Below are positions 40,121-41,786 of a DNA stretch of 64,000 nt, one piece after another. The stretch's first letter is position 1, and every line of letters starts with the position of its first letter. Source of the stretch: Pelosinus propionicus DSM 13327 (lineage in GTDB: Bacteria; Bacillota; Negativicutes; DSM-13327); the NCBI RefSeq assembly GCF_900114615.1, contig NZ_FOTS01000012.1:64001-128000 (forward strand). The letters run 5' to 3'. Below the pieces are notes generated by a model. It did not search any database. It saw only the letters and a list, made by a program, of their open reading frames with translations, and was not told where the DNA came from. The position numbers and the translations under genes were made by a program.

Positions 40121-40420
40121 CTAATCGCGACGAGGCCAGCAAGAATTTGGATTGCAAGGACGGGGCCAGCATTGCTGACGAGGCCAGCATTGCTGACGGG
40201 GCCAGCATTGTTGACGAGGCCAGCATTGCTGACGAGGCCAGCATTGTTGACGAGGCCAGCACTGCTGCTGACGGGGCCAACAAGAAGATGACGGACCGCA
40301 CCCTATAATAACAACTCGTTCATCATCGTCATCATCATCCCACTCAGACATTTCTGGTCGATCCCATTTAGGTCTTTGTTCATTATCATAGAAATCATCA
40401 TCATCATCGTCATAATACAT
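40121..40420 (-). CDS. RiPP precursor candidate with eight CWPR repeats
   Basis: 99 residues from the ATG at 40420 (AAGGAG nine bases upstream; ATG 40426 is too close to it). Residues 1-45 are a leader with two runs of six aspartates (MYYDDDDDDFYDNEQ and SEWDDDDDDERVVIIGCG). The rest is a core of eight CWPR units: six spaced by QQ (one by QQQ), then CWPRPCNPNS, then a final CWPRRD. The 18-base DNA repeat (TGCTGACGAGGCCAGCAT on the + strand, with variants) shows it grew by tandem duplication, while silent third-base changes and strict conservation of C-W-P-R point to selection. It lies 40 bases downstream of a radical SAM maturase on the same strand. W-P-R suits a three-residue cyclophane; the cysteines suit thioether formation. 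Confidence 0.75.
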   Translation of the reverse strand: MYYDDDDDDFYDNEQRPKWDRPEMSEWDDDDDDERVVIIGCGPSSSCWPRQQQCWPRQQCWPRQQCWPRQQCWPRQQCWPRQQCWPRPCNPNSCWPRRD

Positions 40421-40465
40421 ATGCATATTCTCCTTTTTAAATTAATGATATTCGCTATATCTAGG

Positions 40466-41698
40466 TTACCACTCGCCGGTATAAGGGTTATAAGAGCAGG
40501 CAGCAGGAGGGGCCAGCCATGACTTATTAGGATCGTTGCCTTGAGCTAACGGACGACAATCCGTGCAAGCATAGCGATATTCACAATCCTTACATTTTTC
40601 AATTTGATTTTTATTCGTGTGCCAGCATTGTTGTAATGGCGAATCTGTAAGTACCTCAGCTAATGAATGTGTGAGAATATTGCCGCATACTTGATTTCTT
40701 GCAAAGATGCAAGGTATGATATCACCTGTGGAGGTAATCGCAAGTTTTCCTGCCAGGCATTGGCAGTAAGTTTGAGAAGCCATAAAAGAAGTTTCATCGG
40801 TGTAAAAAGGTGGCTTAATAGGCGGCTTGGTATAAGTAGTTGGAAGTAAATGCTGATCGTCCCCTCTGCCGGTGGGGCGAATCACATCGGGATATGCATC
40901 AGGCATACCCAATTCTTCATATAACTTAAGGATATTAGGCACTTCATGTTCATTAGCTTTCATAATAATAGAAGCGATGCGCAAAGGAATCTTGGCTTCT
41001 AGTAGTTTCTTGATAGCATTCATGGTTTTTGTAAAACTATTAGGATGCAAGGTCACGCTGTCATGGACGGAGGCGTTATTAGCATAAATAGTTGTGGCGA
41101 TGCTTACATTATATTGCTTAAAGAAATCGATACAGTCATCATCAACTAATGTAGCATTTGTAAAGATTTCGATGTAGTCATAACCGATTTCATAAGCTTT
41201 GATGACTAAGTCACGCCATTTTGGATATAGTAATGGCTCACCGCCAATGAATTGAATATCGGTAGCTCCTGCTGCTTTTGCCTCTTCTATTAAGGAAAGC
41301 CAGCGGTGATGAGGTACGAGATCTAATTCCTTGCGTGAAGGACCGCTTTCAGAGTAACAGTGCAAACACTTGCTGTTGCAGGCTGCTGTTAGTTCTAACC
41401 ACAGAAACTCAAGTTTGACGGGGGAGTCTGGCAAGGAGCGCTCTGGCAAAGATGCGGAAGATGTTTCGTCAAAGAATCCTAAATCTTTTTGTTCTAATTT
41501 ATTTAAGAAAGTCATGTATTGAGTGCTTTCGCTAGAAGACATATCCCAAAGATCTTCCAATGCGTTGTTCTGGCAGGCACTGAGTAGCCCGGCTGCACTT
41601 TGGTTAATGGAATGAACCTTTCCTGTTTTAAAGTCGTAGATTGCAGCACGAGTAGCACCTTTTACTAATTTGCAGTGTTTTTGTAAGTTATAATACAA
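40466..41698 (-). CDS. radical SAM/SPASM peptide maturase
   Basis: 410 residues; TTG start at 41698 eight bases after GGAGG. The first 100 residues (KGATRAAIYDFKTGKVHSIN) resemble a PqqD-like peptide recognition element. The radical SAM core has C107-x3-C111-x2-C114 (TAACNSKCLHCYSES) for the SAM cluster and the GGEPLLYP motif. The C-terminal SPASM/twitch region is cysteine-rich: QTYCQCLAGKLAITSTGDII, CIFARNQVCGNI, CWHTNKNQIEKCKDCEYRYA, CTDCRP and a final AACSYNP, enough for auxiliary Fe-S clusters. Enzymes of this kind install C-C or C-S cross-links on ribosomal peptides. The adjacent peptide is the probable substrate. No protease or exporter gene is next to it. Confidence 0.88.
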   Translation of the reverse strand: MYYNLQKHCKLVKGATRAAIYDFKTGKVHSINQSAAGLLSACQNNALEDLWDMSSSESTQYMTFLNKLEQKDLGFFDETSSASLPERSLPDSPVKLEFLWLELTAACNSKCLHCYSESGPSRKELDLVPHHRWLSLIEEAKAAGATDIQFIGGEPLLYPKWRDLVIKAYEIGYDYIEIFTNATLVDDDCIDFFKQYNVSIATTIYANNASVHDSVTLHPNSFTKTMNAIKKLLEAKIPLRIASIIMKANEHEVPNILKLYEELGMPDAYPDVIRPTGRGDDQHLLPTTYTKPPIKPPFYTDETSFMASQTYCQCLAGKLAITSTGDIIPCIFARNQVCGNILTHSLAEVLTDSPLQQCWHTNKNQIEKCKDCEYRYACTDCRPLAQGNDPNKSWLAPPAACSYNPYTGEW

Positions 41699-41786
41699 CA
41701 GATCAGCCTCCTTTTATGGATTTATTACATAATATGCAAAAAACGGTATCTTGGTGTGTGCCATCTTTCAAAAAAACAATCGAATG

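Follow-up and report, generated by a model that had tools for sequence, protein, structure and literature searches.

A radical SAM maturase and Cys-x-Pro repeat peptides form a probable sporulation-linked RiPP-like system in spore-forming Negativicutes

The maturase-peptide locus

We analysed a 64,000-nucleotide stretch of Pelosinus propionicus DSM 13327 DNA (hereafter the window) and confirmed two adjacent open reading frames (ORFs) on its minus strand, one for a radical SAM/SPASM enzyme and one for a small repeat peptide. The initial annotation had placed such a maturase next to a CWPR peptide, and this is borne out by the ORFs, by the Pfam domains of the enzyme and by eight CWPR units in the peptide. 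The genes and their signals are:

40466-41698, minus strand: maturase with radical SAM and SPASM domains and a predicted RRE, 410 aa, TTG start
41707-41712, minus strand: ribosome-binding site AGGAGG of the maturase, read from the sequence
40121-40420, minus strand: CxP-repeat precursor peptide, 99 aa, stop codon included in the coordinates; an alternative ATG at 40426 would give 101 aa
40430-40435, minus strand: ribosome-binding site AAGGAG of the peptide, read from the sequence
40301-40420, minus strand: leader region with PKWDRPEMSEW and acidic runs, the leader being kept in relatives
40124-40300, minus strand: core of ten Cys-x-Pro units, eight of them CWPR, from the sequence
40159-40267, minus strand: 18-base tandem repeat coding CWPRQQ (TRF, period 18, 6.1 copies)

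The gap from the maturase stop to the peptide start at 40420 is 45 nt. We consider the second ATG (40420, 99 aa) the better peptide start because it lies 9 nt behind AAGGAG and is the sole Met in relatives. The pair is flanked by an amino-acid permease gene and tig. Among the neighbouring ORFs, we found no exporter, transporter or immunity gene adjoining the pair and no ATP-grasp ligase, and no leader protease for the CxP peptides was identified. A scan for sigma-70 promoters and terminators gave no informative result for the maturase-peptide unit.

The Cys-x-Pro rule of the peptide family

The two units of the window peptide core that are not CWPR are CGP and CNP. TRF found a single array in the whole window, that at 40159-40267, and its CWPRQQ units differ synonymously only (CCT/CCC, CAA/CAG); ORFs on the opposite strand over the array are low-complexity shadows. 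The window has 942 stop-to-stop ORFs with a length of 30-260 aa; this peptide is the one CxP-rich ORF among them, and it is conserved in relatives with a varying number of units. Hence, the ORF is not a chance product, and the variation in unit number between strains that the initial annotation had proposed to look for is present. In two close Pelosinus relatives, one drifted unit reads CSPH, with C and P retained and W and R gone. In P. fermentans JBW45 (loci L008/L221, genome G003), the CCCC run of the array has one C fewer, which breaks the frame after the second CWP, by either a frameshift or a sequencing error.

Across 33 non-redundant peptides of the family, we found Pro at +2 of 465 of 470 Cys, compared with a mean of 111 and a maximum of 132 after permutation; the family ORFs were chosen by CxP count, which favours CxP, yet this choice did not require x-Pro after every Cys. 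In the leader of these peptides, PKW[DE]xPE[IM]xxW stands ahead of an acidic stretch; the core is a series of Cys-x-Pro units (CWPR, CFPR, CYPR, CNPN, CSPN, CRPR and others) with freely varying residues between and after them. Freyrasin-type CX3D/E repeats are not the core motif. Judged from these counts, the invariant of the family is C-x-P, not C-W-P-R. The initial annotation had taken each CWPR for a modification site; each repeat unit is indeed a probable site, but CWPR is not the essential unit, the constant part being Cys-x-Pro. The refuting outcome named in the initial annotation, another conserved substrate in place of CWPR, holds in part: most homologues of the maturase have CxP peptides without CWPR. 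The aspartate runs had been proposed to bind metal or the maturase, and the comparison does not support this proposal: the acidic patch varies, and the conserved part of the leader is W[DE]xPE[IM]xxW.

The same counts bear on the chemistry first suggested for the peptide, the formation of aromatic-x-Arg three-residue cyclophanes at W-P-R. Such rings would fit the window peptide and the CFPR/CYPR repeats of part of the family. However, Trp directly follows only 45 of the 470 Cys, an aromatic residue stands at +1 of 196 and Arg at +3 of 188, and on these frequencies we rejected the W-P-R cyclophane as the general chemistry. C-x-P is what stays constant, even in the CSPH unit that has neither W nor R, and CNP/CSP/CRP peptides with few aromatic residues are served by 60%-identical enzymes. 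In addition, no cyclophane-maturase model exceeded its cut-off among the best 25 NCBIfam models for the enzyme. We regard cyclophane formation as extremely unlikely.

NCBIfam and Pfam searches with ten further CxP peptides gave no family above cut-off. One CxP peptide matched the elgicin lantibiotic model at 29.7 bits (cut-off 40), which we took as a chance match of low complexity. Near position 1790 of locus L121 (G027), a second peptide type with CWPWRGGGGG repeats lies beside a CWPRRRPPCSP peptide.

The maturase resembles thioether-forming enzymes

The enzyme exceeds the Pfam cut-offs for Radical_SAM (68 bits) and SPASM (32.8 bits), and its parts are:

41453-41698, minus strand: predicted N-terminal RRE domain, residues 1-82, PqqD-like, from a separate AlphaFold model and its fold matches
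41357-41380, minus strand: radical SAM CxxxCxxC motif, C107/C111/C114, invariant in 32 homologues
40490-40765, minus strand: SPASM domain, residues 312-403, with seven conserved Cys, from Pfam and the homologue alignment

The SPASM cysteines (C314, C330, C369, C372, C378, C381 and C401) are likewise invariant across the 32 homologues, and the domain is expected to bind two auxiliary Fe-S clusters. In NCBIfam, no model among the best 25 exceeded its cut-off. The top model, the grasp-with-spasm family TIGR04193, reached 119.1 bits against a cut-off of 175, chiefly over the SPASM half; with this score and no ATP-grasp gene nearby, we rejected membership. No family in NCBIfam or Pfam matched the maturase-precursor pair, in keeping with the earlier suggestion of a pathway that lacks a described family.

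The AlphaFold model of the whole maturase has a mean pLDDT of 82.6. Its closest whole folds are SkfB (Z 23.7, rmsd 3.1, 255 aligned residues), CteB (Z 23.2, rmsd 6.6, 362 aligned) and SuiB (Z 21.8). The N-terminal 92 residues, modelled alone (pLDDT 85.2), best match the RRE of lasso B1 protein 6jx3 (Z 10.7, rmsd 2.0, 76 aligned), followed by TbiB1 (5v1u, Z 9.8), 5v1v (Z 9.6), PqqD (5sxy, Z 8.5) and the PbtF RRE (Z 7.9). Foldseek gave E-values of 0.007 and weaker for this domain; its top matches were nonetheless RREs. From these models, residues 1-82 are a predicted PqqD-like RRE, which probably binds the leader.

SkfB and CteB are both thioether synthases, and Cys is conserved in the core of the CxP peptides as it is in ranthipeptides and sactipeptides. 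By analogy, from fold likeness and Cys conservation, the chemistry in the CxP peptides is probably thioether formation. Related SPASM enzymes also make C-C, C-O, epimerised and cyclopropane products, and the modification could instead be another one centred on Cys or Pro, such as a C-C bond at Pro, epimerisation or desaturation. Pro is as invariant as Cys, the chemistry of SPASM enzymes is diverse and the fold matches include the epimerase EpeE (Z 18.2), all of which suits such a reaction. Nevertheless, the nearest whole-protein folds are those of thioether enzymes and Cys is the invariant residue of the donor type, and we consider a modification other than a thioether somewhat unlikely. A Cys-centred cross-link in the CxP peptides is the likely outcome.

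The maturase and CxP peptides occur together

The maturase is 96% and 94% identical to two P. fermentans records, and orthologues are present in nearly all relatives. Of 300 Negativicutes genomes, 50 have an orthologue of at least 50% identity, nearly always a single one (G008 has two). A CxP peptide gene lies 10-75 nt downstream of the maturase at 34 sampled loci; at five others the distance is up to about 4.5 kb. Where a genome has the maturase and no adjacent peptide, a profile search located a CxP peptide elsewhere. At L087 (G110), the adjacent peptide stops soon after the leader, and other CxP peptides remain in that genome.

In a second profile search of 79 genomes, 48 of the 50 genomes with the system gave peptides, in many cases more than one, and the 29 maturase-negative controls gave none. 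G142, in which a contig end truncates the maturase, is not among these 50; G009, an 85% complete genome with peptides and no detected maturase (perhaps due to that incompleteness), is. Both misses were resolved, G025 by a peptide from the earlier profile search and G122 by a peptide adjacent to its maturase, which gives 50 of 50. The source genome has five peptide loci (the window locus and those on contigs C69, C103, C49 and C92), and by eye there was no obvious recurring partner gene beside its scattered peptides.

We found no maturase relatives in viral contigs, and a search of 398 genomes across the phylum gave no orthologue and one distant homologue besides the source genome's own. Distant maturases of about 30-32% identity (G134, G078 and G116), together with the homologue in G405, also adjoin CxP peptides, with unrelated leaders. 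Hence, CxP is what the enzyme appears to act on, because these distant maturases also adjoin CxP peptides (in three separate clades, at about 30% identity where measured) and 22 other radical SAM loci had no CxP-rich ORF nearby; this is the strongest evidence that we have. We found the core element IGCxP[ST]x[ST]PCxP in 22 of 39 Negativicutes peptides; the GG-leader peptides beside distant maturases, of which up to about nine stand in a row, have it too.

Such rows, with the leader xNVEKLTDExLDKVSGG and CxP cores, lie at L106 and L108 (G134 and G078) and resemble a secreted version of the system. At L105 (5213-5789), the G405 homologue adjoins two CDP-type repeat peptides (CDPxxPSCDPTNPTCSPD); this genome is outside the Negativicutes sample.

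On these gene patterns, the maturase and the CxP peptides almost certainly form a pair. Cys-rich coat and exosporium proteins are present in other spore formers, so the CxP peptides could likewise be unmodified coat proteins, disulfide-joined or metal-binding, with the maturase acting on some other target. That reading is very unlikely in view of the operon pairing, the strict co-occurrence that includes the scattered cases, the RRE domain, the conserved leader and the independent pairing in distant clades.

The system follows spoIVA and has a sigma-K-type promoter

We compared the maturase with spoIVA in the 300 Negativicutes genomes and found both in 47, the maturase only in 3, spoIVA only in 5 and neither in 245, counts that ignore phylogeny. 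By family, the maturase occurs in 18 of the 19 families with spoIVA and in zero families without it. The system is absent from three spoIVA-positive genomes (G014, G032 and G048). Hence, sporulation as such does not depend on it.

Upstream of the maturases, we found CAC-N16-19-GCATATTATGTA or a close variant. In the window the element is:

41726-41756, minus strand: putative sigma-K-type promoter, -35 CAC/AC and -10 CATATTAT within GCATATTATGTA, from family comparison and a genome promoter search

The same element precedes most of the scattered peptide genes, 40-64 nt from the start. We counted AC-N15-18-CATAnnnT in 41 of 49 upstream regions of maturases and 23 of 27 of scattered peptides, compared with 2.5 and 1.2 in shuffles. 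At the -35, AC stands before 34 of 35 maturase genes, 21 of 24 genes for scattered peptides and none of 18 spoIVA genes; all 18 spoIVA genes, from the same clade, have ATA there. In C. difficile, sigma-E has -35 ATA and sigma-K -35 AC, and CATATTAT is described as a canonical mother-cell -10 (PMC3789822); there and in B. subtilis, the two factors have a common -10 and differ at the -35 (PMC3789822, PMC517825). From these sequences, the maturase and the scattered peptides have a common promoter of sigma-K type, whereas that of spoIVA is of sigma-E type, and we infer that sigma-K itself is used.

When the promoter alone was used to search the source genome, six sites came up, against none in the reversed control. 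One belongs to the maturase and three to CxP peptides; of the other two, one is a further site next to one of these peptides and one belongs to another small gene. The CxP peptides on C49 and C92 were first found in this way. Hence, sporulation very likely controls both the maturase and the CxP peptides. The sporulation link, the additional scattered peptides and their common sigma-K-type promoter were all missing from the account in the initial annotation.

Two small genes behind the same promoter element are candidates for other late sporulation proteins: one at G000:C58:74485 (L163), which begins MNIIQRKKVAV... and further on encodes the Gly/Ile-rich peptide MGLGFGGGRNGFGGSGCIIIIII..., and one at G000:C83:22467 (L159), MSGSCGCGDKCGCMFSE....

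The sigK gene of the source genome appears to be in two parts (G000:C78:180450-180866 and 186134-186385), about 5.3 kb apart, as if a skin-like element lay between them. It also appears split in G003 and G008, and it is unsplit in the spoIVA-positive, maturase-negative G014, G032 and G048.

The promoter type also bears on another reading, in which the CxP peptides would serve as antimicrobials or signals: RiPPs that are produced late in sporulation and then released or borne on the spore, as with the sporulation killing factor. In its favour, the nearest fold is that of SkfB, and distant homologues are paired with bacteriocin-like GG-leader peptides. Yet no transporter or immunity gene stands beside the pair, the substrates are scattered and diverse and are kept in 18 spore-forming families, and the promoter is of sigma-K type, in contrast to the early timing of the killing factor. 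We therefore consider an antimicrobial or signalling role unlikely.

Discussion

Our results make it reasonably likely that the locus belongs to a sporulation-specific, RiPP-like maturation system of spore-forming Negativicutes, in which one maturase introduces a Cys-centred modification into the CxP family for the spore envelope. Late in sporulation, sigma-K would transcribe in the mother cell the maturase and a family of small peptides, of which one is usually in the maturase operon and the others are scattered over the chromosome. The RRE of the maturase would bind the common W[DE]xPE[IM]xxW leader, and the radical SAM-SPASM core would modify successive Cys-x-Pro units, with the SPASM cluster region holding the Cys thiolate while the 5'-deoxyadenosyl radical takes a hydrogen from a nearby carbon. 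The outcome would most likely be one oxidatively formed bond from Cys sulfur to carbon (a thioether) per unit, at -2 Da each, with Pro as a possible acceptor or as the residue that sets the turn. With their high content of Cys, Pro and, in many cases, Arg, the products would become part of the spore coat or exosporium.

From the regulation, the products are probably a component of the spore envelope; a protein that is assembled within the mother cell, on the forespore, would not be expected to have an exporter in its neighbourhood, and there is none. Tentatively, we suggest that part of the envelope may consist of radical-SAM-cross-linked Cys-x-Pro peptides, with one late mother-cell maturase acting in trans on scattered, fast-evolving substrates to give a polymer of small Cys-Pro-centred rings.

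Most known RiPP-type maturation yields antibiotics, signals or cofactors. In this case it appears linked to the building of a spore, in a class for which little is known of coat composition, and the apparent co-activation late in sporulation suggests a chemically cross-linked spore-envelope material that is undescribed in the databases and papers searched. The C-x-P invariant amounts to a simple rule for substrates that is open to testing in E. coli. An enzyme that has many natural substrates with differing units would suit work on peptide cross-linking chemistry, and the promoter and leader rule together predict new sporulation genes in Negativicutes.

The architecture of the enzyme is already known; the C-x-P substrate class, the use of one maturase for several scattered genes and the late-sporulation regulation are new in that we did not find them in the databases and papers searched. 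Our literature searches gave nothing that joins Negativicutes, radical SAM and a precursor peptide, and nothing relevant on spore coat with radical SAM or on CxP motifs; subscription journals and preprints were mostly outside the search, so an earlier description is possible.

The ranthipeptide and sactipeptide synthases CteB, SkfB and PapB likewise combine RRE, radical SAM and SPASM domains and act on a small Cys-containing precursor. PapB is also reported to act on repeated Cys motifs, in a CX3D/E repeat peptide (PMC9413430). The present system differs from these in its motif, which is C-x-P rather than CX3D/E or six-Cys, in having one maturase for several scattered precursors, in its sigma-K-type control and in its lack of an exporter. 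The grasp-with-spasm family provides the best-scoring model, but the substrates here are CxP peptides and there is no ATP-grasp partner. Triceptides and other three-residue cyclophane RiPPs share the SPASM maturase and short ring motifs in the precursor, but here no aromatic-x-x motif is conserved; Cys and Pro are. In the TvgB/TvgA poly-cyclopropylglycine pathway, a radical SAM enzyme likewise acts on a tandemly repeated core motif, but the repeat is TVGG, the chemistry is another and the cluster has five genes; that survey mentions neither CxP nor Pelosinus nor Sporomusa (PMC9062424).

Bacilli and Clostridia have Cys-rich coat and exosporium proteins that resemble the CxP peptides in their narrow distribution and repeats, and in the late mother-cell expression and cross-linking proposed here. 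Spore coats are cross-linked by transglutaminase, and for the coat proteins covered in the same source no radical enzyme is mentioned and no RiPP-type leader is described (PMC3533761). The coats of other firmicutes probably hold further unidentified proteins (PMC3533761).
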